This document shows positions 22,266-52,304 of a stretch of 64,000 bases of DNA, piece by piece. The notes beneath the pieces are model-generated. The model had not been told where the DNA came from. It was given only the letters and a program-made list of their open reading frames with translations, and made no database searches. Positions within the stretch are counted from its first letter, which is position 1, and the number at the start of each line of letters is the position of its first letter. Both the position numbers and the translations under genes were made by a program. Source of the stretch: Halobellus litoreus (GTDB lineage Archaea; Halobacteriota; Halobacteria; Halobacteriales; Haloferacaceae); assembly GCF_024464595.1 (NCBI RefSeq), contig NZ_JANHAW010000002.1, forward strand, positions 496,001-560,000, read 5' to 3'.

Positions 22266-22408
22266 ATGTACAGCAACTTTCACCCCTGCAGTATTGTACC
22301 ACATAGCGGGATTAATAATTTTATTATGAATATTCTACACTTTCTTTAGTATTGCAGTTATACTGCTTCTATACCGATTCAACTGAATTTGAGTCCAAAA
22401 ACATTAAT

Positions 22409-22431: not shown

Positions 22432-22579
22432 CGTAGAGTAGAGCTATTAGTATATATTCCCATATAGTATTATTTTCAATGTTATACTAGTCGTAATATA
22501 CGCCAAAATATTCTATAATACATATGCTATTAATGCTAAACTATTTGTTATTAGGGGAGCAGAGTGGTACCAAGCCACT

Positions 22580-24220: not shown

Positions 24221-24244
24221 GGAAAGAAGAGCTTCTATTCGAAT

Positions 24245-25246: not shown

Positions 25247-26193
25247 TGAACGGCTCTGATGATGATTCCTCGTCACCGCAGCCGTCACAATCTGGATGGG
25301 CAGACGTCACCCCGCAACTTCGCCAGAACTCCACCTCGCGGTGGGGGCTATACATCATCGCCGTCGTCATTGCGGTCGCGATCTGGGCATTCATCGACGG
25401 CGTCTTACTCGGGTACCACTTTGCGGAAACGTACTGGTACAGCCCGGTAACTGCGGAACCGGGTGCCCGCAGTTTGCTTCCGCCGGTCGGAATTACGAAC
25501 GAGTTCGGGACAGGAGTGTGGGCACATCCGCTCGGAACAGATCACCGGGGGCGTGATATACTAGCTCGCCTCGTGTACGGCACGCGGATCGCCATTCAAA
25601 TCGGGATCGTTGCGACCGGCCTCGGTGCTGTTGTCGGCACGATCATTGGCGCTATCTCCGGGTACTACGGCGGATGGATTGACGACGTCCTCCAGCGACT
25701 CGTCGAGACTTTCTACGCCATCCCGTTCATCGTGCTGATGATCGCGATTATGTCCACGTTCGGACGTAATCTCTGGATTGCGATCGTCGGCGTAAGCGTC
25801 ATCACAACCCCTGTATTCGCCCGGTTGATTCGTTCAGAGGTTCTCAGTGTCCGCGAAGAGGAGTACATCGAAGCGGCGAAAGCAGCCGGCGTCCGCGATC
25901 GCAACATAATCAGACGCCACGTCATTCCGAACAGCCTAGCGCCTGTGTTAGTTCAAGCAACCCTACAGGTTGGCGTGAACATCCTCATCGTCGCAGCGCT
26001 CTCCTTCTTAGGATTCGGTGCGCAACCACCGACGCCGTCGTGGGGGGCGATGCTTGCTCAGTCGCGGACCTATATGCTCCCGAACCCGTGGTTCAGCTTC
26101 TGGCCCGGGCTGGCCATTCTGGTGACCGTAGTCGGGTTCAATCTTATCGGGGATGGACTGCGCGATGCCTTCGACCCGCGACTTGACGACTAA
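25246..26193 (+). CDS. Dipeptide-type ABC transporter permease, DppC-like
   Basis: A 315-residue second permease with five to six helices. It has HPLGTDHRGRDILARLVYGT, the DppC signature after the first helix, the EAA loop YIEAAKAAGVRDRNIIRRHV, and a late ALSFLGFGAQPPTPSWGAML. It starts one base before the end of the DppB-like stop (TGATG) and pairs with it. Confidence 0.94.
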   Translation: MNGSDDDSSSPQPSQSGWADVTPQLRQNSTSRWGLYIIAVVIAVAIWAFIDGVLLGYHFAETYWYSPVTAEPGARSLLPPVGITNEFGTGVWAHPLGTDHRGRDILARLVYGTRIAIQIGIVATGLGAVVGTIIGAISGYYGGWIDDVLQRLVETFYAIPFIVLMIAIMSTFGRNLWIAIVGVSVITTPVFARLIRSEVLSVREEEYIEAAKAAGVRDRNIIRRHVIPNSLAPVLVQATLQVGVNILIVAALSFLGFGAQPPTPSWGAMLAQSRTYMLPNPWFSFWPGLAILVTVVGFNLIGDGLRDAFDPRLDD

Positions 26194-26215
26194 TATACTA
26201 ACAAGACACACAACT

Positions 26216-27313
26216 ATGAGTGACACTCCACTGCTGAAAGTTGAGAACCTGAAGACACAGTTTTTCACGGACGCCGGAACCGTCCGTGCGGTCGACAGTG
26301 TTTCCTTTACTGTCGAGCGCGGAGAGATCGTCGGACTCGTCGGCGAGTCTGGGGCCGGCAAAAGTGTTGCCGTTCAAAGCATCCTTCGCCTCGTCGATTC
26401 CCCCGGACGTATCGTCGGTGGCGAGATCACATTCGACGGGAAGACTATTGTCGGATTCGAAGAAGACACCGACGAGACAGAGAACCCGGTTAGACGTGAA
26501 GAGATGCTCTCGGACTCGGAGATGCGTTCACAGATCCGCGGCAACGAGATCGCGCTCATCTTCCAGGATCCGATGGAGAGTCTCAATCCGGTGTTCACGG
26601 TCGGTGAGCAACTCTGTGAGTTCATCGAACTCAATCGGGGGCTCACCGGGAAAGACGTACGCGAACGTGCGATCGAAATCCTCCGCGAAGTGGGAATCCC
26701 TCAGCCCGACGAACGGTTCGACGATTACCCGCACCAGTTCTCGGGAGGGATGCGCCAGCGGGTCCTCATTGCGATGGCGCTTGGCTGCGAGCCGAAGCTT
26801 ATCATCGCAGACGAGCCCACGACTGCACTAGACGTGACGGTTGAGGGGCAGATCATCGACCTCGTATACGATCTCCAGAAGGAGTACGACACGAGTTTCC
26901 TCTGGGTGACTCACGATATGGGTATCGTCGCGGAGATCTGCGACCGGGTCAACGTGATGTACCTCGGAGAGCTAATCGAGCGTGCAGGGGTCGATGATCT
27001 GTTCTATGACCCACAGCATCCATACACCGAGGCTCTATTGAACTCGATTCCTCGTCCGAACCAGGCTGGCGAGCTACAGCCGCTGAAAGGGTCGATGCCG
27101 GAAGCGATCGATCCGCCGTCTGGCTGTCGGTTTCACGACCGCTGTCCCGACGCAACCGAAGCCTGTACCCGGACGCATCCGAACCTCCGGCGAGTCACCG
27201 AAGACGAGCAGTGGGCAGCCTGCATCAAACACGATGTGTTCGAGGCGGGCTATGAGACGAGCCGTCAACTCTCATCCGAGGGGGTTTCTGTGGTAGGTGA
27301 GAACAGTGAGTAG
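26216..27313 (+). CDS. Dipeptide-type ABC transporter ATP-binding protein, DppD-like
   Basis: About 365 residues from the ATG at 26216. Walker A is GESGAGKSV, the signature FSGGMRQRV, Walker [15 protein letters not shown]. The C-terminal oligopeptide-transporter domain has a [14 protein letters not shown] segment with paired cysteines, usual for DppD. It is the fourth gene of the operon and overlaps the DppF-like gene by up to 17 bp. Confidence 0.94.
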
Positions 27314-28619
27314 ATCAGAAACAGATCCGCTGGTCCGTATCTCAGGTCTGTCAAAGCACTTTAACAACTCAAGTGGGTTGTTTGGCGGATACGAGTTTTC
27401 ACCGGACGGATTGAGCTTTCCGTTCGAGTACGATCCGGACGTGGTCCGCGCTGTCGATGACGTTTCTTTCCAGATCGATCGGGGGGAAACGCTCGGCTTA
27501 GTAGGCGAATCAGGCTGTGGGAAGTCGACGCTCGCCCGCGTCGTCCTGCAGCTCCTGCGACCCACCGAGGGAGACATTTACTTCGATGATGACAATCTTG
27601 CAGACCTGAGTGACGAGGCGCTCCGCCAGCGACGGAAGGACATCCAGATTATCTTTCAGGATCCGCAGTCGAGCCTGGATCCTCGGATGAAGGTCGGATC
27701 AATCATCGAAGAACCAATGCAGGCCCACGGGATGTACGACGCTGACGGCCGCGAGGAGCGAACCAAAGAGCTCCTGGATGCCGTCGGGTTGGAACCGCAG
27801 TATTATGACCGCTATCCCCACGAGTTCTCCGGCGGACAGCGTCAACGAGTCAACCTCGCGCGGGCGCTTTCGGTTGATCCAGAGTTCGTCGTCCTCGATG
27901 AACCGACGAGTGCGTTGGACGTCTCGATCCAGGCACAGATATTGAACACGCTGGACGATCTCCAAGACGAGTTCGGCCTGACGTACTTGTTCATCAGTCA
28001 CGACCTCTCCGTTATCCGGCATATCAGCGATCGTGTCGCGGTGATGTATCTCGGCGAGATTGTCGAGATCGGAGACGTAGAGGTCCTCTTCGAGGATCCG
28101 AAGCATCCGTACACGAGAGCACTGCTATCTTCGATTCCCGTTCCGGACCCGCGTAATAGGGGACAACGAAGCGTGTTAGTGGGTGACGTTCCCAGTCCGA
28201 TTAATCCCCCGAGTGGCTGTCGGTTCCGCACACGCTGTCCATCCCTCATTGCACCCGAAGAATACGACCTGAGTGAGGACGAGTGGACCAACGTTAGGGA
28301 TTTCACCCGGGCCGTTGACCGACGCTCCTTCGATGCTGAAGATGTTGACTCCGTCTACGAGCGCTTTCTCGACGGCCCTCTCTCGGATTCGACGTGTGAA
28401 AGTGTGGTGTACGAGGCGATCGAGCTCATTGTCACCGATCGCTGGGAGGAGGCGTCTGAGCTGCTACGGCGCCAGTTTGCTGCAAAGAGCATCTGTGCGA
28501 ACACAGCCCCGTCGCTCGAACAGTCCGGAGATAACGATCCCAGTCGGGAGGTTGCGTGTCACCTCCACCAACCGAATGAGAGTCTCACGACAAATCAAGA
28601 AACGGGCGGGAGGATGTAG
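27297..28619 (+). CDS. Dipeptide-type ABC transporter ATP-binding protein, DppF-like, with long C-terminal extension
   Basis: A 440-residue protein. Walker A is [12 protein letters not shown], the signature FSGGQRQRV, Walker [15 protein letters not shown], and a cysteine-bearing CRFRTRCP segment follows. After that come about 100 residues (from [16 protein letters not shown]) without clear likeness to DppF, including an acidic helical part. The start is a GTG at 27297 or 27306. With the DppD-like subunit it energises the importer. Confidence 0.92.
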
Positions 28620-28676
28620 CCGGCTTTTGTCCTTCCGGTCGGTCGCACCGCAAACCAAGAATCTACGAAACCAACT

Positions 28677-30092
28677 ATGACCAAAGATACCATACACGAA
28701 CGGATAGAAGAGCGCCGGACTGATCTCGTTTCGCTGACCCGGGAGCTCTGGGAAAACCCCGAACTCGGGCTTCAGGAGACGGAATCTGCAGAGCTACTCG
28801 CGACGCGACTCGCCGACGAAGGATTCACCGTCAACCGGGGCGTCGGCGGGATGCCAACAGCATTTGTGGCCTCATACGGGAATGGAGGACCAACAATCGG
28901 GATCCTCGGGGAATACGACGCGTTGCCCGGCCTGTCTCAAAAATCGATCGCTCGAAAGGAACCGGTTGATGAAGGCGGGCCGGGCCACGGATGCGGACAT
29001 AATCTCTTCGGGGTCGGGAGCCTTGGTGCAGCGGTCGCAGTCAAGGAAGCGATCGAACGTGGCGACGTCGATGGCACGATTCGGTATTACGGCTGTCCGG
29101 CGGAGGAGACACTCGTCGGGAAGGTCTATATGGCTCGTGCTGGCGTCTTCGACGATCTTGATGCAGCACTAACGTGGCATCCGAGTCACGTGTCGGCGCC
29201 GTGGAAGGCACGCTCCCTCGCAATGAACTCCATCGAGTACTCATTCTCCGGGCAGTCGGCCCACGCGGCAGATTCCCCGGAATCCGGGCGGAGTGCGCTG
29301 GATGCAGTCGAGTTAATGAACACGGGAGTGGAATTTATGCGAGAGCATATCATCGACGACGCGCGTATCCACTATTCGATTACGAACGGAGGGGGTGCAC
29401 CGAACGTCGTCCCCGCTGAGGCGTCTGTCTGGTACTTCGTCCGTGCCCCAACCCGGAAGGGTGTCGACCGAATTACGGACTGGCTGGATGAAGTTGCCGA
29501 GGGAGCAACGTTGATGGCGCAGACGACGGTCGACCGTCGCTTCCTCACAGGTTGTTATGACTACATTGCGAGCGATACGCTGTCAGATGTTCTCCTATCA
29601 AATATGCGTGATCTCGGAACGATCCCGTACTCGGACGCCGACCGGGCGTTCGCCACCGAGCTTCAAGAGACACTCGACGAATCCACGATCGAGAACCGCC
29701 TTAGTGGGTTGCCCGAACAGCGACGCGCGGAGGCTCGAGAACAGGCACTGTACTCGAATCCGATGGAATCGTTTGATGAAGGGACGGTATTGAGCGGTTC
29801 GACGGACGTTGGCGACGTCAGTTGGATCACTCCCGTGGCACAGTTCTGGGGTGCCGCCTGGCCTGTAGGGACACCGTCGCATTCCTGGCAGGCAGTCGCA
29901 GCTAACGGAGATTTCGCTGCTAAGGCGGCGGTCTACGCCGCAAAAGTACTTGCCGGGACGGCATACGACCTTCTCTCGACTCCATCGATAGTCGAGGCAG
30001 CGGCTGAAGAACTCAGATCGACGCGGTCACACGATTACGAGAGCCCGCTCCCAGAAACTGCGGAACCACCTGCAGATATGGGTGTGAACTGA
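28677..30092 (+). CDS. M20-family metallo-amidohydrolase, AbgB-like
   Basis: A 471-residue enzyme. It has GEYDALPGL, a GHGCGHNLFG metal-binding loop, AEET with the likely catalytic Glu, and a dimerisation domain near SFSGQSAHAADSPESGRSAL. The order fits the AbgB/aminoacylase branch of M20, which cleaves N-acyl or p-aminobenzoyl amino acids. It follows the importer by 58 bp and probably hydrolyses an imported amide. Metal ions would be Zn or Mn by family knowledge. Confidence 0.9.
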   Translation: MTKDTIHERIEERRTDLVSLTRELWENPELGLQETESAELLATRLADEGFTVNRGVGGMPTAFVASYGNGGPTIGILGEYDALPGLSQKSIARKEPVDEGGPGHGCGHNLFGVGSLGAAVAVKEAIERGDVDGTIRYYGCPAEETLVGKVYMARAGVFDDLDAALTWHPSHVSAPWKARSLAMNSIEYSFSGQSAHAADSPESGRSALDAVELMNTGVEFMREHIIDDARIHYSITNGGGAPNVVPAEASVWYFVRAPTRKGVDRITDWLDEVAEGATLMAQTTVDRRFLTGCYDYIASDTLSDVLLSNMRDLGTIPYSDADRAFATELQETLDESTIENRLSGLPEQRRAEAREQALYSNPMESFDEGTVLSGSTDVGDVSWITPVAQFWGAAWPVGTPSHSWQAVAANGDFAAKAAVYAAKVLAGTAYDLLSTPSIVEAAAEELRSTRSHDYESPLPETAEPPADMGVN

Positions 30093-30093
30093 A

Positions 30094-30234
30094 ATGTGCG
30101 TTCTACCAGATCCTGATCTTCCGATGACTGAATCCTACAAATCAACGATCGACAAAGACGGCGGCGACGAGAACAAGATGTCCACACAGACGGCAATTGT
30201 CAGCGATACAGCGGAGGGAGACTGTGATGAGTGA
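30094..30234 (+). CDS. Possible 46-residue small protein
   Basis: A short frame starts one base after the M20 gene stop and ends inside the first codons of the creatininase gene (8-bp overlap). It would give MCVLPDPDLPMTESYKSTID plus 26 acidic residues. Its position between two genes at coupling distance suggests a translated linker that carries ribosomes across the gap. No family is seen; it may be a chance frame. Confidence 0.3.
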   Translation: MCVLPDPDLPMTESYKSTIDKDGGDENKMSTQTAIVSDTAEGDCDE

Positions 30235-30970
30235 ACGCACCCGGTACCGGCTCGAACAGATGACCTGGGAAGAGGCTGAGGAGGCATTCGAGACCGCTGA
30301 CTACGTCGTCCTTCCGTGTGGAAGCACGGAACAGCACTCGCTGCATCTCCCGACGTCAGTGGATACGCTGCGTTCATCCCATCTCACGGATGAACTTGCG
30401 GAACGTGCGCCGGACCACGGACTCGAACTGTTAGTGCTGCCGCCGCTGCCGTACGGGTATTCGGAGCATCACCTTCCGTTCTCTGGGACAATCACGCTTG
30501 ACGCCGAGACGTACTGTGAAGTCATCGTGGATATCGGTCGATCGGTGAAGAAACACGGAGGGAAGCGATTCCTTATCACGAATTTCCACGCCGGCAACAT
30601 TGAACCGCACAAGCTTGCGATCGATCGCCTCCAGCGCGAGTATGATCTCCCGACACGCTACGTCAACTGGACAGACTTCGCTCGCGACAAGCTCGAAGCC
30701 CGCTTCGGTGACAAGTGGGGACACGCTGGCGAACACGAGACGAGCGTGATAGAACACTATCGACCGGAACTGGTACGGCAGGGGAAAAAGCAGCCACAGA
30801 CCTTACACGATGTTGCCGAGTCCGAACAGTTTCGGTATTTCGATGATCTCACGGTGGAAGGTGGACTCGGCGATCCGACCGACTCCGACCCGGCGTTCAT
30901 AGCCGACATTATCGAAGAGACAACGGACAAAGTTCTCAGCGACCTCAAAACCGGGAATCAAGATGTTTAG
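30227..30970 (+). CDS. Creatininase-family metallo-amidohydrolase
   Basis: About 247 residues from the ATG at 30227. CGSTEQHSLHLPTSVDT (31-47) puts Glu35, His37 and Asp46 at the metal-ligand spacing of creatininase; ITNFHAGN (118-124) and GHAGEHETS (165-173) supply His and Glu ligands seen in the family. Members open cyclic amides (creatinine, formamidopyrimidine-type rings) or act in cofactor pathways such as MftE. In this operon, ring opening or amide cleavage of an imported compound fits best, but the substrate is inferred. Confidence 0.9.
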   Translation: MSERTRYRLEQMTWEEAEEAFETADYVVLPCGSTEQHSLHLPTSVDTLRSSHLTDELAERAPDHGLELLVLPPLPYGYSEHHLPFSGTITLDAETYCEVIVDIGRSVKKHGGKRFLITNFHAGNIEPHKLAIDRLQREYDLPTRYVNWTDFARDKLEARFGDKWGHAGEHETSVIEHYRPELVRQGKKQPQTLHDVAESEQFRYFDDLTVEGGLGDPTDSDPAFIADIIEETTDKVLSDLKTGNQDV

Positions 30971-31045
30971 TAGGACCACCGGTCGTCGGCAGACGATGGT
31001 TTTCAAACAGAGAGCTACCGAGAGGGTAGTTGTGGGGACCGTCTG

Positions 31046-31867
31046 ATGGCTCGAGCCAACGTATGTCTCACAGTGGATTTCGATGCAGTTTCCTCTTGGA
31101 TTCATTCGTTCGACGAGGCCGATAGTGCGCGAAATCTCTCCCGCGGTTTGTTTGGGGTGGATGTGGGTGCACCACGTCTTCTCGAAATCTTCGACGACCA
31201 CGACATTACGACAACTTGGTTCGTGCCCGGGCACACCGTCGAGAGTTTCCCAGACGCCGTCGAAGCTGTCTGGGCTGACGGGACAGGACACGACATCCAG
31301 CACCACGGGTGGTCGCATACTCGCCCCTCAACGTACGCCGATAAACCAAGCGAACGGGCGGATATCGAGCGTGGAATCGAGGCAATACAAGGACTCACCG
31401 GACGACAGCCAGTCGGATACCGGTCTCCTTCCTGGGATTTCTCGTCTAATACGCTCTCTCTGCTCGAAGAATTTGGGTTTGAGTGGGACTCCAGTCAAAT
31501 GGCCACCGAGTTTCACCCCTATTTCCTTCGGCAGGGGTGGGAGGCACCGGTGGATGCTCCGTACGAGCGTGGGGATAAGACCGAGATAGCCGAAGTGCCG
31601 GTGTCGTGGCAGCGTGATGACTTCCCTGCCTTCGCATTTAGTCGTCAGCGCGGCTATGCGAACGAACGGGCAATCTTCGAGATGTGGGAATCCCAGTTTG
31701 ATTGGATGTACCGTAACGTAGAGAACGGCACATATGTATTAACGATGCATCCCCAAATTATGGGATATTCCCACCGAATTAGTCACTTAGAATCACTCAT
31801 TGCGACTCTGGAGTCATATCCTGATGTCGAATTTACCACTGTAGACGCCGTTGCATCTGAACTGTAG
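31046..31867 (+). CDS. Polysaccharide-deacetylase-family (NodB/PuuE-like) hydrolase
   Basis: A 273-residue protein. CLTVDFDAVS gives the Asp pair of motif 1, DIQHHGWSHTRP the His motif 2, and GYRSPSWDFSSNTLSLLEEF motif 3 with its Arg. The late THTVDA-like FTTVDAVASEL end is also usual. Length and lack of a signal peptide suit the cytoplasmic branch with PuuE allantoinase and HpPgdA-like enzymes rather than chitin deacetylases. It probably cleaves a C-N bond in the same pathway as the M20 and creatininase proteins. Confidence 0.87.
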   Translation: MARANVCLTVDFDAVSSWIHSFDEADSARNLSRGLFGVDVGAPRLLEIFDDHDITTTWFVPGHTVESFPDAVEAVWADGTGHDIQHHGWSHTRPSTYADKPSERADIERGIEAIQGLTGRQPVGYRSPSWDFSSNTLSLLEEFGFEWDSSQMATEFHPYFLRQGWEAPVDAPYERGDKTEIAEVPVSWQRDDFPAFAFSRQRGYANERAIFEMWESQFDWMYRNVENGTYVLTMHPQIMGYSHRISHLESLIATLESYPDVEFTTVDAVASEL

Positions 31868-31940
31868 GAGTAACCCACAAAACCGCGGCAAGCCCCGATA
31901 GCGTTCCTACTCTCTGTTGTTGGATCTATCCGGGCGAATC

Positions 31941-32669
31941 TTATACGAGTCCCGACCCGCCGTCGACGTTCACAACACTTCCAGTCATATAGGCACTACC
32001 TTCCCCACAGAGAAAGTGAACGACTCGCGCGACTTCGTCCGGTTCGCCGAGGCGATTGGTCGGGAGTCGGTCGATGAATGCAGCTAATTCCTCGTCGGAC
32101 CACAGATCGGAATCCGTTACCAGAGGAGTGTCGATAAGCCCCGGAACGACACAATTCACCTTGACAGAAGGCGCTAGTTGCTTTGCGAGTCCCTTTGTAA
32201 GGCCGAAGATCCCGGCCTTCGAGGCAGAATAGTGAACGCCCGCGCTTGCACTACCACGCTGCCCCGCTGTTGAGGAGATGTTCACGATCGCGCCCTCCTC
32301 ACGCTCAAACATACGTGGTCCAACCGCGTGGGCGATGTTATACTGTCCTGTGAGATTGATATCAATAACTTCGTGCCATTCCTCAGGCGTGAGATCTCCG
32401 AGCCAGACGTACCGTGAGACTGCGGCGTTGTTCACCAGCGCAGTGATATTATGCTTATTTTCGATGTCATCAACAGCCTCGTGTACCGCCTCGTGGTCAC
32501 GTACATCGACGTCATACGTCGAAACATCGTCGTCGTCAAATACGGTCTGGACAGTCGAATCGACGTCAAATGCAGCAACGTGATCGAGAGACTCGTCGAC
32601 TCTGAATCGGTCAACGACTGCACGACCAATTCCAGAGGCGGCACCGGTAACAAGAGCACAGGTCGACAT
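31941..32669 (-). CDS. Short-chain dehydrogenase/reductase
   Basis: About 242 residues from the ATG at 32669 (MSTCALVTGAASGIGRAVVD). TGAASGIG is the cofactor loop (8-15), NNAAVS the structural motif, and HYSASKAG holds the active Tyr and Lys; the end MTGSVVNVDGGSGLV is typical. It is convergent with the hydrolase operon. An NAD(P)-linked oxidation of a product alcohol or ketone is plausible. Classic SDR; substrate not known. Confidence 0.92.
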   Translation of the reverse strand: MSTCALVTGAASGIGRAVVDRFRVDESLDHVAAFDVDSTVQTVFDDDDVSTYDVDVRDHEAVHEAVDDIENKHNITALVNNAAVSRYVWLGDLTPEEWHEVIDINLTGQYNIAHAVGPRMFEREEGAIVNISSTAGQRGSASAGVHYSASKAGIFGLTKGLAKQLAPSVKVNCVVPGLIDTPLVTDSDLWSDEELAAFIDRLPTNRLGEPDEVARVVHFLCGEGSAYMTGSVVNVDGGSGLV

Positions 32670-32828
32670 AGGTGATAACCCTCTCAGGTACACTTAATCT
32701 GCCACCATTCTCTGGTTACTCACCAATCCCATTCCGAGCATACGTACACGAATCAGCCATCTGCTAGTGCTGTTGGCTCGTGTTACTCGGCTATTTTACT
32801 CGGTCTCAATATATTTGGAGACAGCATT

Positions 32829-32853
32829 ACGGGCCTCACGCCCGTAGGCGTGC
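32829..32853 (+). repeat. Two mutually exclusive small hairpins in a gene-free stretch
   Basis: ACGGGC-ctcac-GCCCGT (32829-32845) and CACGCC-cgta-GGCGTG (32838-32853) overlap, so only one can form. They stand in the 303-bp gap between the SDR start and the broken integrase. The rest of the gap is AT-rich without a gene; near 32955-32970 the sequence TGTTGAATAGATTCTG recalls ends of haloarchaeal IS elements. Could be SDR leader structure or the end of a lost element. Confidence 0.3.
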
Positions 32854-32972
32854 GATGATTTCCTATCATACTCCATTTTCGTACCAAGCACGCCTGTTTC
32901 AAGAGTTCCGTCAGAGTTTTGATTTTCTCATTTCTGAATTTATTACTCTGTTGAATAGATTCTGAGACACGG

Positions 32973-33317
32973 TTACAGCGGCTCACACAGCGATTCTATG
33001 TTGATGATGGCGAACATCAGGATAATTTCACGGAACTGGCGATACCAGCCGAGCGCGATAGGATCTCCGTCTAACGAATGGGGCGTAGTGTAGCCTCCGT
33101 TGCTCTCCCAGACGAACCGATAGAACGCGTCCATTCGATGTGCGCGTGGTTTTACGGTCTCGAATGCGTATCCCTCTCCCTTCTTCGGCATGATACCAAA
33201 GACGAGCAACCACGAGAGACAATCTTCCCGGACTGACTCGTAATCGAGGCGTTACCGTCGATTGAGGTATTCAGCGGAGGGTTCCGGAACGTGGGTAATC
33301 CCGTCGAGATCAACCAT
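32973..33317 (-). pseudogene. Broken tyrosine integrase gene, N-terminal part
   Basis: The minus strand has GGAGG, then ATG at 33317: MVDLDGITHVPEPSAEYLNR, R, an in-frame TAA (33252-33254) where CAA is expected, then RLDYESVREDCLSWLLVFG, and later AFETVKPRAHRMDAFYRFVW and NGGYTT. This is the SAM-like core-binding domain found at the start of haloarchaeal tyrosine integrases. The catalytic domain with R..HxRxxxY is missing. The last 30 residues (GWYRQFREIILMFAIINIES) differ and may be a transposase end. The start lies 161 bp from the 3' end of tRNA-Glu, the usual place of an integrase. Confidence 0.65.
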
Positions 33318-33477
33318 CGTATTCCTCCGAAGTGATCCGGCGAATCCGGTTGGCAAAGCAATTCGAAAACTACACGACAGCGTCGGGGTTGTACTTCCGT
33401 CGAGTGTAATTGCCCTGATGCGACATTGTGACTCTCCATTCGCAATGGGCAAAACCGCCAGACGGCGTCGGGAGAAG

Positions 33478-33552
33478 TGCTCCGTCAGGGATTCGAACCC
33501 TGGTCCTTGCCGTGAGAGGGCAAGATGATTGGCCGGACTACACCAACGGAGC
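33478..33552 (-). tRNA. tRNA-Glu (anticodon CTC)
   Basis: The 75-nt minus-strand sequence folds as a complete cloverleaf: acceptor GCTCCGT pairs with ACGGAGC, discriminator A; anticodon stem TTGCC/GGCAA around the loop CTCTCAC with anticodon CTC; T arm CAGGG-TTCGAAT-CCCTG. No CCA is encoded and no intron is seen. It marks the change from accessory genes (lower coordinates, at its 3' side) to core genes and is the likely attachment site of the broken integrase. Confidence 0.95.
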
Positions 33553-33652: not shown

Positions 33653-34399
33653 CTATTCGCTATCTTCGGCGTCTTCGTCGGCCGATCCGTATTCGTCGAT
33701 CACCTCGGCGATCTCGTCTTCGGAAACCGGCCGATAGCCGTCGGCCGTGATCGTGGCGACGGTCACGCTCGCGGCGTCGAGGTCGTCGTTGTTCGCAAGG
33801 AGGGCTCGGACCGCGATCTCGACACCGTCGTCGACGGAGAGCGCTTCGGACCAGTTGGATTCGAGGAACTCCTGGATGTCGTCGCGACCGGATCCGATAG
33901 CGACCGCCCGCCACTCTTGGGGTGCACCCGAGGGATCGGTCTGATAGAGTCGCGGTTCCGAGCCCGAGTCGTCCATCCCCGCGATCAGGAGTGCGGCCCC
34001 GAACGGTCTCGTCCCGCCGTACTGCGTCGTCTCCTGAATCTCGTCGGAGAGCGTCTTCGTGAGCGTTTCGACGCCGAGCGGTTCGCCGTAGCGAAGGCGG
34101 TTCCGCTGGGCGGCCGTCCGCGCCCCGTCGATCAGTCGGCGGGCGTCGGCGACGTGGCCGGCCGAGGCCGCTCCCAGGAAGTCGTCGAGTTTGTGGAGTT
34201 TCTCGATGCTGTCGCCCTCCATCAGCGAGGAACTGGTCCGGCGCTGTGCGGCGAGTACGACGCCGTCGGCGGTCCGAATCCCGAGGCTCGGTGCACCGCG
34301 CTTGACCGCTTCGCGAGCGTACTCGACCTGATAGATGCGTCCGTCGGGAGAGAAGAGCGAGGTCCCCCGGTCGTACGCCTGCTGGTCGTTTCGGTTCAT
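33653..34399 (-). CDS. psmC: 20S proteasome alpha subunit, second paralogue
   Basis: A 248-residue protein with the alpha-subunit N-terminal signature (YDRGTSLFSPDGRIYQVEYA, then REAVKRG) and ASAGHVADARRLID. It lacks a propeptide and active Thr, as expected for alpha subunits, and forms the outer rings of the 20S core. Divergence in LAAQRRTSSSLMEGDSIEK and its place beside a YegP-like gene match the second alpha paralogue of Haloferax (PsmC, alpha2) rather than alpha1. The acidic tail is typical. A CTTTATCC stretch upstream of the ATG on this strand may be the TATA box. Confidence 0.93.
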   Translation of the reverse strand: MNRNDQQAYDRGTSLFSPDGRIYQVEYAREAVKRGAPSLGIRTADGVVLAAQRRTSSSLMEGDSIEKLHKLDDFLGAASAGHVADARRLIDGARTAAQRNRLRYGEPLGVETLTKTLSDEIQETTQYGGTRPFGAALLIAGMDDSGSEPRLYQTDPSGAPQEWRAVAIGSGRDDIQEFLESNWSEALSVDDGVEIAVRALLANNDDLDAASVTVATITADGYRPVSEDEIAEVIDEYGSADEDAEDSE

Positions 34400-34477
34400 C
34401 TATCCCCACTCCGATCCGTGGACGGATAAAGCCACCACCGGCACACGTTTTTACCGGAATCGGAGCCCATCTTCGGT

Positions 34478-34663
34478 TCAGGAATCAGTCTCCACGACGT
34501 CGGCTTCGGGCGCGTTTTGCTTGACGCTCTCGATTCCCTGCGTCGCCTTCTGTTTGGTCGCGTAGCCCTCACCGCTGTCGGCGATGATGTTGCCGTTGTC
34601 GTGGACGAGCCGCCAGCGGTACTTCCCGGAGCGGTCCTCGTACACCTCGAACGTGGCGCTCAT
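34478..34663 (-). CDS. YegP/UPF0339 (DUF1508) small protein
   Basis: A 61-residue protein, MSATFEVYEDRSGKYRWRLV followed by DNGNIIADSGEGYATKQKAT. This is one DUF1508 repeat, the same size and place (next to the proteasome alpha2 gene) as in Haloferax volcanii. Function unknown; the fold is a small beta-sheet with a helix. Confidence 0.92.
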   Translation of the reverse strand: MSATFEVYEDRSGKYRWRLVHDNGNIIADSGEGYATKQKATQGIESVKQNAPEADVVETDS

Positions 34664-34768
34664 ACGGCCGACCGTTGTGCCGCGTGTCGCAAAAGCGTAC
34701 TCCCGGTGGCGATGCGGACTGCTCGTCTCCGGGCGACGCGGACCGCCTGCCCCCGGAGACCGCGGCCC

Positions 34769-35374
34769 TCAGCCGTCGACGCGCTCGTACGTGACAAAGT
34801 CGAACTCGTCGCGAGAGTCGCGATCCGCCTCGATCCACTCGTCGTCGTCCGGGACCGGAAAGCGCGTGTCGCCGTCGTAGGTCCCGTGAATCTCCGTGAG
34901 CACGAGGCGCGTCGCGTGCGGGAGGAACTGCTCGTAAATTCGACCGCCGCCCGCGACGTACGCCGTCTCGACGCCCCGTTCGGCGGCGTCGGCTTCGGCT
35001 CGTTCGACGGCCTCCGCGACGGAGTTCGCGAGCACCGCCCCCTCGGGAAGTTCCAGCGACTGGGAGGAGAGCACGACGCTCGTCCGGCCCGGGAACGGTT
35101 CCCCGAGGGCGTCGACGACCGTCTCGTAGGTCTTGCGTCCGACGATCACCGGGTGCCCGGTCGTCGTCCGTTTGAAGTGTTTCAGGTCCTCGGCGTAGTG
35201 CCAGGGCATTCCGCCGTCGCGGCCGATCACGCCGTTCTCGGCGACTGCGGCGATCAGGACGATTTCGAGGTCGGTGTCGAGGCTCTCGTCTGCGGCGTCC
35301 CCAGCGTCGGCCCGGGGGCCGGCGTCGACGTCGGAATCGGCGGTCTCAGAGGCGGCGTCCGTCTCCGAGGTCAT
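34769..35374 (-). CDS. folA: Dihydrofolate reductase
   Basis: About 201 residues. After a 35-residue acidic N-terminal extension the enzyme reads IAAVAENGVIGRDGGMPWHY with the substrate loop, AEDLKHFKRTTTGHPVIVGR with NADPH contacts, and AYVAGGGRIYEQFL near the end. It makes tetrahydrofolate from dihydrofolate. The ATG (35374) overlaps the thymidylate synthase stop by one base, so the two are translated together. This suits function: ThyA produces the dihydrofolate that this enzyme recycles. The long acidic extension is unusual. Confidence 0.95.
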   Translation of the reverse strand: MTSETDAASETADSDVDAGPRADAGDAADESLDTDLEIVLIAAVAENGVIGRDGGMPWHYAEDLKHFKRTTTGHPVIVGRKTYETVVDALGEPFPGRTSVVLSSQSLELPEGAVLANSVAEAVERAEADAAERGVETAYVAGGGRIYEQFLPHATRLVLTEIHGTYDGDTRFPVPDDDEWIEADRDSRDEFDFVTYERVDG

Positions 35375-36372
35375 CACTCGGCCACCGCGAAGCGGATTCC
35401 GGGCGCGGGATCGTACCCCGACAGTTCGACGTCGTCGAAGGCGAGTTCGTCGAGGGGAACGTCGGCCACGTCGATGGCGGGCCGCTCGCGCGGCTCGCGT
35501 GCGCACTGTTCGAGCAGGCCGGGGACGTGATCGTACCGCTCCTCGCCGTCGGCCTCCGGTGGAGCCGCGTCTTCGAGCCACTCACGGACCTCGCGGTACT
35601 CGGACCGCTCCTCAACGGCCGCGACCCGCGACTGCAACGCGTCGAGGTTGTCGGCGTACCACGCGCCGCGTTCGCCGGCCCCGCAGTAGATGTGCGAATC
35701 GACGACCGAGTGCGCGAACCGTCCCGGCTCGAAGCCGGTCCGCTGCGCGATGGCGGTCGCCAGCAGCGAGTACGCCGCGATGTTGAACGGGATCCCGAGC
35801 GCGACGTCGCCGGACCGCTGGTGCAGGTGCACGTTCAGTTCGTCGCCCTGAACGTTGAGCACGAACGTGTAGTGACACGGCGGCAGCGTCGAGACGGCGG
35901 CGTTCGCCGGGTGCCACGCGTTGACGACGATGCGCCGGGAGTTGGGGTTCTCGCGCAACTGATCGAGGACGTACTGGATCTGATCGAACGTCCCCTCGTC
36001 GTTCATCCAGCGGTGGTCGTCGTCGGGCCACGACTCGCCGGGGAGCCCCTCCTCGGGAACGGGGAACCGACGCCAGAAGCGCCCGTAGGCGGTGTCGAGA
36101 TGCCCCGCCTCGTCGGCCCAGGCGTCCCAGATTCCGGTCTCCTCGCGGAGGCTCCGGATGTGTTCCTCGCCGGAGAGGTACCAGACGAACTCGTGGATCA
36201 GCGAGTTCCACCGCGCCCCCGAGAGGTCCTTCGTCGTGAGCAGCGGGAACCCCGCCGAGAGGTCGACTTCGTAGTGGCGGCTGAACGCGGATATCGTGTC
36301 CACGCCGGTGCGGTTCGGCTTGTGTCCCCCGGTTTCGAGGACGTCGGTGACGAGATCGAGGTACTGACGCAT
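35374..36372 (-). CDS. thyA: Thymidylate synthase
   Basis: About 332 residues from the ATG at 36372 (MRQYLDLVTDVLETGGHKPN). It has the catalytic loop LPPCHYTF with the active Cys, RSGDVALGIPFNIAAYSLLA for dUMP and folate binding, and an early RTGVDTIS. A GTG at 36447 would add 25 residues that relatives lack. It converts dUMP and methylene-tetrahydrofolate to dTMP and dihydrofolate and is coupled to the folA-like gene. Confidence 0.96.
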   Translation of the reverse strand: MRQYLDLVTDVLETGGHKPNRTGVDTISAFSRHYEVDLSAGFPLLTTKDLSGARWNSLIHEFVWYLSGEEHIRSLREETGIWDAWADEAGHLDTAYGRFWRRFPVPEEGLPGESWPDDDHRWMNDEGTFDQIQYVLDQLRENPNSRRIVVNAWHPANAAVSTLPPCHYTFVLNVQGDELNVHLHQRSGDVALGIPFNIAAYSLLATAIAQRTGFEPGRFAHSVVDSHIYCGAGERGAWYADNLDALQSRVAAVEERSEYREVREWLEDAAPPEADGEERYDHVPGLLEQCAREPRERPAIDVADVPLDELAFDDVELSGYDPAPGIRFAVAE

Positions 36373-36477
36373 AAGGATCGGGTTGGCGTACGTTGCTCGC
36401 CCCGCAATCTTGAATCGTTCGGGTGGTCGGGAACCGTCGTCCGACACTTAAGTGACCGCGCCGCAAACGGCTCCCCG

Positions 36478-37704
36478 ATGGCGACGCTCGCAGAGCCCGC
36501 GGTGCTCGCCGCCGCGAAGGACGCGCTGTACCCCGACCTCGAAAACCGAGACGATCAGTACGCAGTCACGGAGTCGCAGTTCACGGCCGACTCGTGGGGT
36601 GGGTGGTGCGTCCCCGACGACATCCGCGATCGGCTCCGCCCGTTCAATTCGATCCGGCTCGAGTCGGGCGAGCCGGACCTGCTCGGCGTCGGTCCCCCCG
36701 CCGGCGAGGTTCTCGACGGGTCCGTCGCGAGTGCGCCCGTCGTCGCGGTCGAAGCGAAGGGCCGTCGCGAGAACGGGACTGTCGACGTCGCGCGCGGCAT
36801 CGAGCAGGCCCACGCCCGGCTCTCGGAGGTGAACCTCGGCTACGTCGCCTCGCCCGCCGCGAGCGTGACCGAGACGGCACGGTCGCTGGCGCGGGAACTG
36901 AACGTCGGCGTCGTCGGCGTCGAGGGCGCCGAGACCGCGTCGGTCCTCGAACCCCCGCGCGTGACTGGGGCGGGCGAGTTCGCCACGGGCGTCGAGGCGA
37001 TCCGGTTCCGGGCGCGTACCCATCGGCTGACAGACGGGAGCTTTCCGGTGAATCACCCGAAGAACTACCTCGGCTATCCGCTCGCGCTCGCGGTCGACGA
37101 CGACACCGACGCGGTCTACGAGGAGCACGTCATCCGACTCGCGGGGGACGGCCGCCGGGGCGCGATCCTCCTCGGCCTCGTGGAGGGCAGCGGCGTCGAC
37201 CGACTCACGCACCTCGGCCGCGAGGTCGTCCGCTTCGCACGCACCGAGTGCGGGAGCGTCGAGTCGGCGCTGGCCCGCTTCGATTCGTGGACGGGACGAT
37301 CCACGCGATTCACCGAACTCGCCCCCCGCTGGGCGCAACTCGCCCGGAGCGTGACGATGGGCTACGAGCCGACGCGGCTCGTGGTCGAGGCGCTGGAGCG
37401 GCTCCACGCCGACGGCGTCCGACCGGCGACCCTTCCCGAAGTCGCGGCGACGGCCTGCGAGATCAACCGCCCGCTGGCCGTCGAGGTGTTCTTCACCGAG
37501 GGCGGCCGCGACGCCGTGCTCAGACGCGACGGGACCCTCCGAGAGGCGGCGCTCGACGATCCGAGCGTGTACAAGTCGGGGATCCACTTCCAGTACAAAG
37601 CACAGCTCTACCACGTCGGCCTCGTGACCGACCGCGGGACCGACGACAAGGCCGCCGCGCTGGCGGACGCGTGGGCGCTCGAACACCCGGTCGGACCGCG
37701 GTAG
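36478..37704 (+). CDS. Haloarchaeal protein with a PD-(D/E)xK nuclease-like signature
   Basis: About 408 residues from the ATG at 36478. The N-terminal third has GEPDLLGVG (Asp67) followed by VVAVEAKGR (Glu92, Lys94) and a Gln-containing helix (Gln110), the order of a restriction-endonuclease-like D...ExK site. The rest contains long helices and a likely winged helix near LEALERLHADGVRPATLPEV. Function is not described for this family as far as I can tell. It is divergent from thyA. Confidence 0.75.
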   Translation: MATLAEPAVLAAAKDALYPDLENRDDQYAVTESQFTADSWGGWCVPDDIRDRLRPFNSIRLESGEPDLLGVGPPAGEVLDGSVASAPVVAVEAKGRRENGTVDVARGIEQAHARLSEVNLGYVASPAASVTETARSLARELNVGVVGVEGAETASVLEPPRVTGAGEFATGVEAIRFRARTHRLTDGSFPVNHPKNYLGYPLALAVDDDTDAVYEEHVIRLAGDGRRGAILLGLVEGSGVDRLTHLGREVVRFARTECGSVESALARFDSWTGRSTRFTELAPRWAQLARSVTMGYEPTRLVVEALERLHADGVRPATLPEVAATACEINRPLAVEVFFTEGGRDAVLRRDGTLREAALDDPSVYKSGIHFQYKAQLYHVGLVTDRGTDDKAAALADAWALEHPVGPR

Positions 37705-37782
37705 CGTGTGTCCGGTCGGACCGGGGTAGCGAGTGTCCGGTCGGACCGGGGTAGCGAGTGTCCGGTCGGACCGCGGTGGCGG
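37683..37782 (+). repeat. Four tandem 25-bp repeats, each with a 13-bp palindrome
   Basis: Units at 37683, 37708, 37733 and 37758 share GGTCGGACCG; the middle two are identical and hold CCGGTCGGACCGG, a palindrome with 6-bp arms. The first copy contains the last codons and stop of the upstream gene. Terminator, protein-binding array or replication-slippage product are all possible. Confidence 0.85.
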
Positions 37783-37822
37783 GTCCGCAGGTATACGTAC
37801 CAGAAGGAGGCCAGACCCGCCG

Positions 37823-38116
37823 ATGACACGGAGGCTCCAGGTCGTCGGCGACGACCGATCGTTCACGATCACCGGCGTCGACAGCGACGAGTGGGAGGGG
37901 ATGCGCGACCCGTGCCCGACGTGCGGCAGTCGTGGCTTCGAGCACGTCTCCGCAAGGGGCGGATACTACGGCGTCCGCGACGGCACCGTCGTACTGCGGT
38001 CGGACGTCTGGGACGCCGACCGGGCGATCCGCACGCGCTGTCGAGCCTGCGGAACGGTGCTCCACAAGCACCCGGCGTTCGACCTGTTGTTCGATCACGG
38101 TCCTGACGAGCCGTAG
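37823..38116 (+). CDS. Small zinc-finger-like protein
   Basis: A 97-residue protein with two CxxC pairs (CPTC near 35 and CRAC near 75), enough for one zinc site. The part between carries RGGYYGVRDGTVVLRSDVWD. Not recognised beyond that; small CxxC proteins are common in haloarchaea. The start at 37823 avoids reading the tandem repeat as protein. Confidence 0.7.
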   Translation: MTRRLQVVGDDRSFTITGVDSDEWEGMRDPCPTCGSRGFEHVSARGGYYGVRDGTVVLRSDVWDADRAIRTRCRACGTVLHKHPAFDLLFDHGPDEP

Positions 38117-38157
38117 CAACCGATCGCTGTCGGGGGAGAACGTCGGGTCGACCGCCA

Positions 38158-38165
38158 AAAATTAT
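38158..38165 (+). promoter_or_regulatory. TATA box of the MFS gene
   Basis: AAATTATA about 26-33 bp before the GTG at 38191 in a GC-rich neighbourhood. The distance predicts a leaderless or nearly leaderless transcript, which supports the GTG start. Confidence 0.55.
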
Positions 38166-38190
38166 ACCTCGCCCTTTCGTTCCGACGCCC

Positions 38191-39624
38191 GTGAGCGAAT
38201 TCGGCGGGGAAACAGACGACACCGGGGGGCCGGAACCGACTGCGAGGGGAGTGACCGAGGACTCCGACGACGGCGACGACCGACCGGGAACCGACGGGTG
38301 GCTCTACGGGTGGGCGCTCGGCTACGCGGCGATCGGGGCGGCGTCGCTTCTCGTGCCGCTGTACGCCATCGACCTCGGTGCCGGGGCGCTCGTGGTCAGC
38401 CTGATCGCCGCGACGGCCGCCTTCGCCGGGGTCCCCGGAGCGATTCTGTGGGGGCGACTGGTGACGCGGACCCGGCGGCGACGCCCCTTCATCCTGGTCG
38501 CGCTCGGACTCACGGCGGGCGTCTTCCTCTCACTCCCGTTTCTGAACTCGCCGTGGACGGTCCTCGCCGCCAACGCGGTGCTGTGGTTCGTCGTCGCCGC
38601 CGCCGCCCCGGTGTTGAACGTCATCGTCGTCGAGGGGTACGATCCCGCGCAATGGACGCAGCGGTTCGGGCTGCTGAACCACTACCAGGGCTACGGCTGG
38701 CTCGTCGGACTCGTCGCCGGCGGTCTGTGGTCGACCGTCGCCGGCGCGCGGTTCGCACTCACGGCGCTCGCGGCGAAGCGACTGTTTTTCGTGCTCAGCG
38801 CGGTCGTCGCGCTCGGCGGCGTCGCCGTCGTGCTCCTCCGATACCCGGAGGCCACCACGATCACCGACCAGCGGTTCGGACGGCTCTCGCGTCGGTTCCG
38901 ACCCGCGAACGGGACGGCTGCGCGCTCGACGCGGGCGGTCCCCTTCGGTCCCGGCCGGATCTACTGGGCGTTTCGCGACCTCGGATTCGGGCGGACCGGC
39001 GGCGCGAGACGGACGACGCGGGGCGTCGTCTCGCGGCTTCGACGCCGGTTCTCCGGCTCGCTGCTCCGGTATCTCCTCGGGGCGGTCGTCTTCTTCGCCG
39101 GCTTCTCGGCGTTCTTCGGGCCGCTTCCGGCCTACCTCGTCGACGCGGGCTACGCCACCGACGAGGTGTTCGCGCTGTTCATCCTGAGTTCGGCGGCGTC
39201 GGCGGTGGCGTACACCGCCGCCGGGGCGGCCGCAGCGAAATACGAACCGTTCCGTCTGCAGGCCGGCGCGCTCCTCTTCCGAGCGGGGGCGTTCCCCGTC
39301 GTCGCCGTAACCGGCGCCGCCGTCGCCCCGCCCGTGGGACCGATCGTCGTGGGGACACTCTTCCTCGCGATCGGCGGCTCCTGGGCGGTCATCGCGGTGA
39401 CCGCGACGGGGCTGGTCTCGCGACTCGCTCCCGATTCGGTCCGCGCGGAGGCGCTCGGCGTGTACACGGCGGTCGGGAGTCTGGGCGGCGGCGTTGGGAG
39501 CGTGTTCGGCGGTGCGATCGCCGACTGGATCGGCTACCTCCCCGCGTTCGTCGTCGCCGGCGGGTTCGTCGTCGTCGGCTTCCTCGTGGCCGCGAGCGCC
39601 GGGTCGGCGTCGACGCCGACGTGA
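38191..39624 (+). CDS. MFS transporter
   Basis: A 477-residue protein with twelve predicted helices after an acidic 35-residue N-terminus. The central loop is Arg-rich (about 225-290). The loop between helices 2 and 3 has GRLVTRTRRRRPFI, the G-x-x-x-D/R-R motif of the major facilitator superfamily. Substrate unknown. It converges with cheW; the two stops are adjacent (39624/39625). Confidence 0.88.
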   Translation: MSEFGGETDDTGGPEPTARGVTEDSDDGDDRPGTDGWLYGWALGYAAIGAASLLVPLYAIDLGAGALVVSLIAATAAFAGVPGAILWGRLVTRTRRRRPFILVALGLTAGVFLSLPFLNSPWTVLAANAVLWFVVAAAAPVLNVIVVEGYDPAQWTQRFGLLNHYQGYGWLVGLVAGGLWSTVAGARFALTALAAKRLFFVLSAVVALGGVAVVLLRYPEATTITDQRFGRLSRRFRPANGTAARSTRAVPFGPGRIYWAFRDLGFGRTGGARRTTRGVVSRLRRRFSGSLLRYLLGAVVFFAGFSAFFGPLPAYLVDAGYATDEVFALFILSSAASAVAYTAAGAAAAKYEPFRLQAGALLFRAGAFPVVAVTGAAVAPPVGPIVVGTLFLAIGGSWAVIAVTATGLVSRLAPDSVRAEALGVYTAVGSLGGGVGSVFGGAIADWIGYLPAFVVAGGFVVVGFLVAASAGSASTPT

Positions 39625-40113
39625 TCAGGTCGCGCTATCGGTCTTCGTGGGCGAGATCCAGACGACGAGTTCGTCCTCCCGGCGGACGATGCCCTCGATG
39701 AAGTCGCTGCGCTCCATCGGCGGGTCCTCGACGTCGTCCATCGAGACGCGGAGGACCTGATCGACCTCGTCGACGAGCCAGCCGATCGCGGCCTCGTCCT
39801 CGAAGCGCTTCGCGTCGAAGATCACGATCCGGTTCGCCTCGCCCGTATCGTCGACGTTCAACAGCGTCTTCGGATTGACGATCGACGTGGTTCGGCCCCG
39901 GAGGTCCATCACGCCCTCGACGAACTCGGGGGCGTTCGGGACGGACGTGAGCGATCCTCGGTCGACGATCTCGGAGACGTAGTCGATGTCCACGCAGTAC
40001 GTCTCGCCCCCCAGCTCGAATTCGAGCACCTGCATCTGGCGGGCGGTGGCGTCGCCGTCGTCTGTCGCGGCGGGGTTCGATGCGCCCGCCGCGACGGGTT
40101 GTTCCTGGGACAT
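39625..40113 (-). CDS. cheW: Chemotaxis coupling protein CheW
   Basis: About 162 residues from the ATG at 40113. The CheW fold shows MQVLEFELGGETYCVDIDYV, NAPEFVEGVMDLRGRTTSIV with the conserved Arg-Gly, and a final DDELVVWISPTK. It links transducer tips to the CheA kinase. It is divergent from cheB with about 200 bp between. Confidence 0.95.
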   Translation of the reverse strand: MSQEQPVAAGASNPAATDDGDATARQMQVLEFELGGETYCVDIDYVSEIVDRGSLTSVPNAPEFVEGVMDLRGRTTSIVNPKTLLNVDDTGEANRIVIFDAKRFEDEAAIGWLVDEVDQVLRVSMDDVEDPPMERSDFIEGIVRREDELVVWISPTKTDSAT

Positions 40114-40223
40114 AGTGGCGTCGCCGGAGACCCGACGGGTCACCGGTTGCTACGTCGTGCTGGCGGGCAGACCGACAATAAATGTACGCACGCTATTATC
40201 ACGGCTGATTCTCGCCGGCGAGC

Positions 40224-40230
40224 GCTTAAG
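40224..40230 (+). promoter_or_regulatory. TATA element of the cheB operon
   Basis: GCTTAAG lies about 28-34 bp before an ATG at 40258 that opens a 22-codon frame ending in the cheB start. If it is the promoter, the transcript begins just before that ATG. Confidence 0.45.
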
Positions 40231-40257
40231 TCCCCCTCTCCGGAAAATCCGGTAGAG

Positions 40258-40326
40258 ATGCGCGGGTACGAACACGCCGTCGAGTGGTCGGACGACGGCG
40301 ACGAAGACGGGAGCAGCGGGCGATGA
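40258..40326 (+). CDS. Possible 22-residue leader peptide before cheB
   Basis: ATG at 40258 to TGA at 40324-40326: MRGYEHAVEWSDDGDEDGSS followed by GR. The stop overlaps the cheB ATG as ATGA. Its ATG would be the first on the transcript from the TATA-like element at 40224. It could couple cheB translation, or be a true microprotein. Confidence 0.4.
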   Translation: MRGYEHAVEWSDDGDEDGSSGR

Positions 40327-41708
40327 GTGCGGCCTCTGAACCGGGAGGCGGCGACGGTCCGACGCGGGCGGTCATCGTCGACGACTCGCGGTTCATGCGG
40401 ACGCTCATCCGGAACCTGCTCGAGGAGGGCGGCATCGAGGTCGTCGGCGAGGCGAAAGACGGGTCGGCGGCGCTCGAGACGGTTCGCGAGCACGACCCCG
40501 ACGTCGTGACGATGGACATCGAGATGCCGACGATGAACGGCCTCGAAGCGGTCGAGGCCATTATGGACGATCACCCGACGCCCGTACTGATGCTGTCGGC
40601 GCACGCCGAGGAGAACGCCGACGTGACGTTCGAGGCGCTGGATCGTGGCGCGGTCGACTTCGTGACCAAGCCGGGCGGAGAGGTCACGTCGTCGATGCCG
40701 CGCGTGAAGAAGGAACTCGTCGAGAAGGTCGAATCCGCCGCGCGGGTCGACCTCTCGGCGAACGCCCGGGCCTCGATCGGTGATCGGGGGACGGCTTCGT
40801 CGGGGACCGACCGCGAGGCGAGCCCCGCGGGGACCGACCGCGACACCAGCGGCCGCGGTGTCGACTCCACGTCCGGTCGCGCCGGGGCGACTCGGGAGCG
40901 GCGCGGTGGCACGGACGGTACGGGAGCGTCCGCGACGGCGTCGGGGGCTGCACCGGACTCGGGACCGGCGACGAACTCGGGGGCTGCACCCGACCGTTCG
41001 GGAACGGACGCCCCTGGCGCGACACGGCCCGCGTCGGCGAACGAGTCCGCAGCGGCGGACCGCTCGACGCTCGGATCCGACGGGGCGTCAGCGGCGACCC
41101 CGGAAGCCGACGCCGGGCGGACCTACCCGGACGCGGGGACCCTGATCGTCGGGGCGTCGACCGGCGGCCCGAACGTCGTCGAGCGCGTTCTCGCGGGACT
41201 CCCCCGAGCGGCGAACCTCCGAGTGCTCGTCGTCCAGCACATGCCCGAGGGGTTCACGTCCCGGTTCGCCACGCGGCTCGACGAACGGTCGGCCTACACC
41301 GTTCGCGAGGCGGAATCGGGCGAGCGGATCGAAGCCGGAGAGGCCCGGGTCGCTCCCGGCGGCACGCACCTCCTCGTCACGGGCGACCGCGGCGGGCGGC
41401 TGAAACTCGAACTGACCGACACGGAACCGATTCACGGCGTTCGGCCGGCGATCGATCTGACGATGGCGTCGGCCGTCGAGACCGTGACCGGACCCCTGTG
41501 CGGGGCGCTGCTCACCGGGATGGGTCGCGACGGCGTCGACGGGATGGAACGGATCGGCCGCAACGGCGGCCACACCATCGCGCAGGACGAGGCGACGTCG
41601 GCGATCTTCGGGATGCCGCGTCGAGCGATCGACACGGGCTGCGTCGAGGTCGTCGCGCCCGCCGAGGAGATCGCCGAGAACGCGCTGGAGTACTTCGCGG
41701 AGGAGTGA
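40323..41708 (+). CDS. cheB: Chemotaxis methylesterase CheB
   Basis: About 461 residues. The receiver domain (1-125) has Asp20-Asp21, the phospho-site Asp65 in VVTMDIEMP, and Lys in FVTKPGG. A long Ser/Thr/Asp/Gly linker (about 150-265) holds repeated TDR and GAAPD units. The methylesterase domain follows with GASTGGP (Ser), VQHMPEGF (His) and TGMGRDGVDGM (Asp). It removes methyl groups from transducers when phosphorylated by CheA. The linker is much longer than in bacteria. Confidence 0.96.
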   Translation: MSAASEPGGGDGPTRAVIVDDSRFMRTLIRNLLEEGGIEVVGEAKDGSAALETVREHDPDVVTMDIEMPTMNGLEAVEAIMDDHPTPVLMLSAHAEENADVTFEALDRGAVDFVTKPGGEVTSSMPRVKKELVEKVESAARVDLSANARASIGDRGTASSGTDREASPAGTDRDTSGRGVDSTSGRAGATRERRGGTDGTGASATASGAAPDSGPATNSGAAPDRSGTDAPGATRPASANESAAADRSTLGSDGASAATPEADAGRTYPDAGTLIVGASTGGPNVVERVLAGLPRAANLRVLVVQHMPEGFTSRFATRLDERSAYTVREAESGERIEAGEARVAPGGTHLLVTGDRGGRLKLELTDTEPIHGVRPAIDLTMASAVETVTGPLCGALLTGMGRDGVDGMERIGRNGGHTIAQDEATSAIFGMPRRAIDTGCVEVVAPAEEIAENALEYFAEE

Positions 41709-41711
41709 CAG

Positions 41712-45127: not shown

Positions 45128-45128
45128 G

Positions 45129-52297: not shown

Positions 52298-52304
52298 CGA
52301 GTTT

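Follow-up and report, generated by a model that had tools for sequence, protein, structure and literature searches.

The window analysed here, that is, the whole 64-kb stretch of DNA shown above (G000:C2:496001-560000), comes from the Halobellus litoreus genome, which comprises 3.86 Mb in 10 contigs. Positions refer to the window, and negative values lie to the left of it. The window contains an intact tRNA-Glu(CTC) gene on the minus strand (33477..33552, ARAGORN), whose 3' half serves the intact elements of congeners as their attachment core. To the right of this gene (33653..64000; Pfam, GC content), an adjoining proteasome alpha gene is followed by core chromosome. To its left lie two copies of a 19-bp repeat, the remnant of a tyrosine integrase gene, a 31-bp patch, one end of an IS and an accessory tract.

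The integrase remnant (33085..33317, minus strand), which was recognised by homology, corresponds to the opening fifth of the gene (codons 1 to ~77) and covers the N-terminal SAM-like, core-binding region without the catalytic domain. Its ATG (33315-33317) lies on the same strand as the tRNA and 159 bp from the tRNA 3' end, a distance given as 161 bp in the original prediction. Direct reading of the sequence places a Shine-Dalgarno-like GGAGG at 33324..33328, and codon 22 of the frame is a TAA (33252..33254). All three signals, already noted originally on the minus strand, were confirmed by the sequence and the frame, which translates as MVDLDGITHVPEPSAEYLNRR*RLDYESVREDCLSWLLVFG... (the asterisk being the TAA) or, in a longer reading of the same frame, as MVDLDGITHVPEPSAEYLNRR*RLDYESVREDCLSWLLVFGIMPKKGEGYAFETVKPRAHRMDAFYRFVWESNGGYTT.

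In the search of family genomes, ~75 residues of the remnant matched integrases with E-values down to 7e-29 and a top identity of 63%, so that the match is not due to chance. The fragment was matched in 93 of the 170 family genomes searched, and the best matched integrase frames were mostly open for 370-440 aa. Both PF13495 and PF00589 were found by Pfam in one of the matched intact integrases (L031). The fragment on its own gave nothing usable with Pfam and NCBIfam, and it has no second match anywhere in the H. litoreus genome. The integrase sequence stops at 33085, and the catalytic domain with its nucleophilic tyrosine is therefore missing; a search with four intact proteins recovered no catalytic or C-terminal half in the surrounding 304 kb. 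Truncation as well as the nonsense codon thus killed the gene. The earlier description of an integrase with one nonsense change was right about the homology and the TAA but overlooked the truncation, and the lower part of the interval that it had assigned to the integrase (32973-33084) is actually made up of the patch and the IS end. By its sequence, the locus belongs to the tRNA-Glu(CTC)-associated haloarchaeal tyrosine integrases as a pseudogene and not as a working member.

Among the 29 best-match loci of the family, a tRNA-Glu was located nearby in 18 (14 CTC and 4 TTC). A second search of named genomes, which shares some species with the first, found tRNA-Glu(CTC) upstream of the integrase at 33 of 45 loci, while the remaining loci had tRNA-Glu(TTC) (4), tRNA-Met (1), tRNA-Arg (1) or no recognised tRNA (6). 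The integrase subfamily linked to tRNA-Glu(CTC) is spread over many genera. On a tree of the fragment and 29 relatives, the tRNA-Glu(CTC) and tRNA-Glu(TTC) labels formed clusters (of 500 shuffles, 0 and 4, respectively, scored as low), and the H. litoreus fragment was placed without firm support. Identities to the fragment ranged from 51 to 63% within the family, and the closest relative, locus L119 in a Haloarculaceae genome, showed 82% amino acid identity across 78 residues. The L119 integrase begins 160 bp behind tRNA-Glu(CTC), its frame is open up to the contig end, and its DNA can be aligned with that of H. litoreus all along the stretch from the tRNA to the integrase. The position of L119 and of most named homologs behind tRNA-Glu(CTC) indicates that the locus was rightly read as an element that inserted into a tRNA gene and whose integrase is now dead.

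The presence of an N-terminal piece only might also recall an SSV-type suicidal integrase, whose gene is split into int(N) and int(C) upon integration. However, the attachment core lies in the tRNA, outside and 5' of the integrase gene, and no int(C) was found within the same 304 kb. The intact relatives beside the same tRNA are whole genes, which already refutes this explanation, and we give it practically no credence. Short integrase fragments were found elsewhere at the same tRNA (172 aa in L019, 77 aa in L046 and 120 aa in L035), which, with the start, ribosome site and binding-region motifs retained in H. litoreus, would be consistent with a domesticated small DNA-binding protein that still targets the repeats or newly arriving elements. 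However, codon 22 is a stop, the frame runs into IS DNA, and the fragments elsewhere differ in length and end, making domestication highly improbable.

Two congeners carry intact elements at this tRNA. G089 has an intact 375-aa integrase after the tRNA, and the tRNA 3' half recurs 5.1 kb on as an exact 43-bp copy. In G093, a 49-bp copy (96% identity) is found 42 kb on. These far-end repeats represent attR sites and thus define the attachment core as the tRNA 3' half. The small element of G089 (L073 14504-19544, on G089:C18; ~5.1 kb) encodes a 459-aa ATPase-like ORF besides its integrase. On the original prediction, the far side of the island should carry the tRNA 3' end as a direct repeat, but neither the H. 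litoreus genome nor the 304 kb around the locus yielded one. BLAST of the tRNA and its flank matched only tRNA-Glu(TTC) elsewhere in the genome, a whole-genome search with a 22-mer allowing up to 3 mismatches gave no second copy of the tRNA end, and exact matches of at least 12 bases and short-word BLAST over the 304 kb gave chance matches only. The integration event is therefore seen from one side only. A 12-bp T-loop match at position 174 was rejected, as it lies on the other strand and belongs to the common T-arm consensus.

Beyond the integrase sequence lies the 31-bp patch (33054..33084, minus strand), which matches part of a DUF7342 gene of the H. litoreus contig C4 at all but one base. 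No further copy with up to 3 mismatches was present in 167 family genomes, nor was the patch found in viral contigs. Its C4 counterpart is in the frame of the DUF7342 gene (PF24033, E-value of 8e-59 for the portion preceding the patch). A mobile insert in the C4 gene was considered as the origin of the patch and rejected, because the frame shows that the patch belongs to that gene. The DUF7342 gene (G000:C4:23760-24680, L172) has an in-frame stop inside the shared 31-bp stretch, and both copies have this stop. C4 is a contig of 229 kb that also encodes an Orc1/Cdc6 protein and is therefore probably a secondary replicon.

The patch adjoins the right end (111 bp) of an IS with a DDE transposase (32946..33056, minus strand), which shows 86-92% DNA identity to congener copies. 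It consists of the transposase C-terminus ...ALGWYRQFREIILMFAIINIESLCEPL* and the terminal sequence ...CTATTCAACAGAG. Four of the five congener matches stop at 33056, and two congener IS copies gave matches just below the cut-off to PF01609 (DDE_Tnp_1) and DUF772. Congener copies of the 111-bp right end (L108 1514-1962, L109 1322-1549) have different upstream DNA with nearly the same junction point, and in L108 this DNA is an N-terminal piece of a transposase, which gives the impression that IS copies with internal deletions are common. The 31-bp patch and the IS end could stem from one or several events.

The GC content is ~69% to the right of the tRNA and 46-63% (~57%) to its left. The tRNA together with the proteasome alpha gene gave a single match in 12 of the 17 genus genomes and split matches in others. 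On the core side, frames at ~37600-37900 repeat VRPDTRYPGPTGH(S/T)LPRSDRT, reflecting a short tandem DNA repeat between genes. The low-GC accessory tract, whose right part occupies 1..32945 and which extends to ~17 kb left of the window, is not found beside the tRNA in G088, the closest congener. There, ~0.3 kb separates the tRNA from a block that is located at -18.3 to -19.0 kb in H. litoreus, in inverted orientation, and beyond this block the two genomes are largely collinear from -19.9 kb to past -79 kb. This layout implies that ~50 kb (-17.2 to 33.4 kb) are either extra in H. litoreus or lost in G088. At G000:C2:477000-478800, which is ~19.0 to 17.2 kb to the left of the window, a 1.7-kb segment is inverted relative to both G088 and G089.

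Backbone that is shared from about -78 to -79 kb of H. litoreus onwards is reached 2 kb from the tRNA in G092, 11 kb in G087, 12 kb in G085 and 57 kb in G093, and the site is empty or otherwise occupied in G088, G092, G089 and G093. The tRNA thus forms the right border of a variable zone, whose length within the genus ranges from 2 to 112 kb. The border between accessory and core DNA that had been claimed at the tRNA is thus upheld by the GC shift, the synteny break and the variable left side, and in the comparison with relatives, of which G088 is without ~50 kb here, synteny across the border was not kept.

Relatives of the accessory tract are scattered over other contigs. Those of 21.5-32.7 kb (72-76% identity) are on G093:C2, G090:C1 and G086:C10, those of 1-5.7 kb on G088:C3, and those of 7.6-9.8 kb on C4 of the H. 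litoreus genome and elsewhere. The cluster at 21504-32693, found at other places in three congeners, encodes an IclR regulator, parts of a peptide-type ABC transporter (SBP_bac_5 and two ATPases with oligo_HPY), an M20 peptidase-like amidohydrolase, members of the creatininase and polysaccharide deacetylase families, and a short-chain dehydrogenase, and may form a catabolic operon that acts on a cyclic amide or a peptide-like compound.

Owing to the intervening scar of IS and DUF7342 DNA and the relatives scattered on other replicons, the accessory genes cannot be assigned to the dead integrase as its island, as the original prediction had it. A single large island, in which ~50 kb to the left (about -17 to 32.9 kb) would be the cargo of the integrase and the far repeat would merely have decayed, agrees with the absence of this DNA at the same place in G088, with the low GC right up to the tRNA and with the 42-kb element of such a kind at the same tRNA in G093. 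However, no decayed copy of the tRNA end stood out above chance in the 304 kb or, at up to 3 mismatches, genome-wide; the scar separates the integrase from the supposed cargo, and this cargo has its relatives elsewhere. We regard a single island as rather unlikely. It is moderately probable that the element was mostly deleted and that the accessory tract came later and piecemeal to a permissive site, through exchange with secondary replicons that was IS-linked or homologous. The composite junction of integrase, DUF7342 and IS sequence argues for such a history, as do the location of the only near-identical copy of the patch on C4, the scatter of the relatives over other contigs and the varying length of the zone across the genus. 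However, no IS was identified at the left border, and the scattered relatives may merely reflect the mobility of the genes themselves.

The N-terminal SAM-like region of haloarchaeal tRNA-associated tyrosine integrases (PF13495 and PF00589, XerC/D-like) is homologous to the H. litoreus fragment, which shares their position and orientation behind the tRNA 3' end; in contrast to the intact integrases, the fragment has no catalytic half and a stop at codon 22. PF13495 and PF00589 make up the domains of the SNJ2 type, and the SNJ2 att site is 13 bp (PMC8371274). The likeness to SNJ2 is one of domain make-up, whereas the tRNA-Glu repeats of the compared elements are 43-49 bp. The same N-terminal region is recognisable in the integrase of a Natrinema thermotolerans plasmid (CP031304, 49%) and in those of the tailed haloviruses HSTV-2/HRTV (35-42%). 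The chromosomal tRNA-Glu integrases (51-82%) are closer to the fragment than these plasmid and virus homologs. Haloarchaeal islands borne by tRNA genes, such as that of Halorubrum ezzemoulense (PMC11078007), likewise have a low-GC variable tract at a tRNA and traces of an integrase. However, the H. litoreus locus differs from them in the absence of a far repeat and in a content that is not tied to the integrase.

Between the tRNA and the integrase start, the two 19-bp repeats lie on the minus strand at +5 after the tRNA (repeat 1, CCGACGCCGTCTGGCGGTT, 33453..33471, 26.0 bits) and at +90 (repeat 2, CCGACGCTGTCGTGTAGTT, 33368..33386, 17.2 bits). They were scored with a matrix trained without this genome, and only three sites on both strands of the window exceeded 16 bits, namely these two and one at 38735. 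Relatives have a directional 19-bp repeat in the same stretch (consensus CCGACGCCGTCTTGCGATT), which at up to 5 mismatches occurred 41 times in 24 loci and never on the opposite strand, versus 0.08 expected from shuffles, a count that is circular by itself since the pattern was derived from the same sequences. The 33 named loci at tRNA-Glu(CTC) overlap in some species with the loci used to train the matrix. Of these 33, 23 had a site at +4 to +8 and 29 had one at +90 to +96, and a third site was often located near +152 to +163. L119 has sites at +6 and +91 only, as in H. litoreus. The array is also present with integrases at tRNA-Pro and tRNA-Gly, so it is the integrase, not the tRNA, that it accompanies.

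The inner side of attR in G089 and G093, the two elements checked, did not show the array. A strong repeat occurs beyond the attR of G089 at +7 (22.5 bits), which suggests that the newer element is stacked on an older one behind it. The native tRNA terminator was rejected as the source of the repeats, because G096, G085 and G087 have no strong sites just after the same tRNA, and it is also ruled out by the arrays at tRNA-Pro and tRNA-Gly integrases. An inverted repeat, TTTTGCCC ... GGGCAA, is present between the two repeats (33400-33455, minus strand), and similar inverted pairs occur at the same place in several relatives.

The pattern leads us to propose, tentatively and with somewhat less than even confidence, that integrases of this haloarchaeal tRNA group may use arm-type sites, formed by a 19-bp array at ~+7, +94 and +152 on the integrase side only, across the tRNA targets Glu, Pro and Gly. 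Such a role appears the most likely one for the array, ahead of the alternative that the repeats serve the control of the integrase gene. The arms of lambda-type attP likewise contain several short directional repeats at fixed spacing between the attachment core and the integrase gene. However, in the two elements checked the putative haloarchaeal sites flank only one side, and Pfam recognised no separate arm-binding domain. No arm-type sites are described for archaea in the 2021 review of archaeal tyrosine recombinases (PMC8371274), where the term itself is absent and lambda Int is the only integrase for which binding to arms is mentioned; according to the review, the archaeal integrases characterised so far work without a directionality factor. 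The repeats beside the tRNA may be integrase landing sites so far undescribed in archaea.

Taken as a whole, the locus is very probably attL, the integrase-side junction of an element once integrated in tRNA-Glu(CTC) and since destroyed, and the tRNA-Glu(CTC) sites of the homologs, the bounding repeats in congeners and the synteny break all bear out the original prediction in this respect. By analogy with the intact elements of the two congeners, an intact integrase would have recombined the tRNA 3' half with the element's own copy, rebuilding a whole tRNA beside the integrase gene. The gene would later have acquired the nonsense codon, and a deletion or rearrangement would have fused codon ~77 to the DUF7342 shred and the IS end, with loss of the catalytic domain. 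The same deletion or rearrangement probably removed much of the element, and the far attachment site is gone. The accessory DNA to the left forms part of the plastic zone building up at the tRNA and need not be cargo of the element.

The find itself is a routine genome fossil, and it marks the tRNA-Glu(CTC) gene beside the proteasome alpha gene as a busy integration site. The locus illustrates how little of an old element suffices for recognition. The repeat array can outlast the integrase gene and could flag former integrations at which no integrase is left. Should the repeats prove to be arm sites, a lambda-like branch would have to be added to the Cre-like view of archaeal integration.
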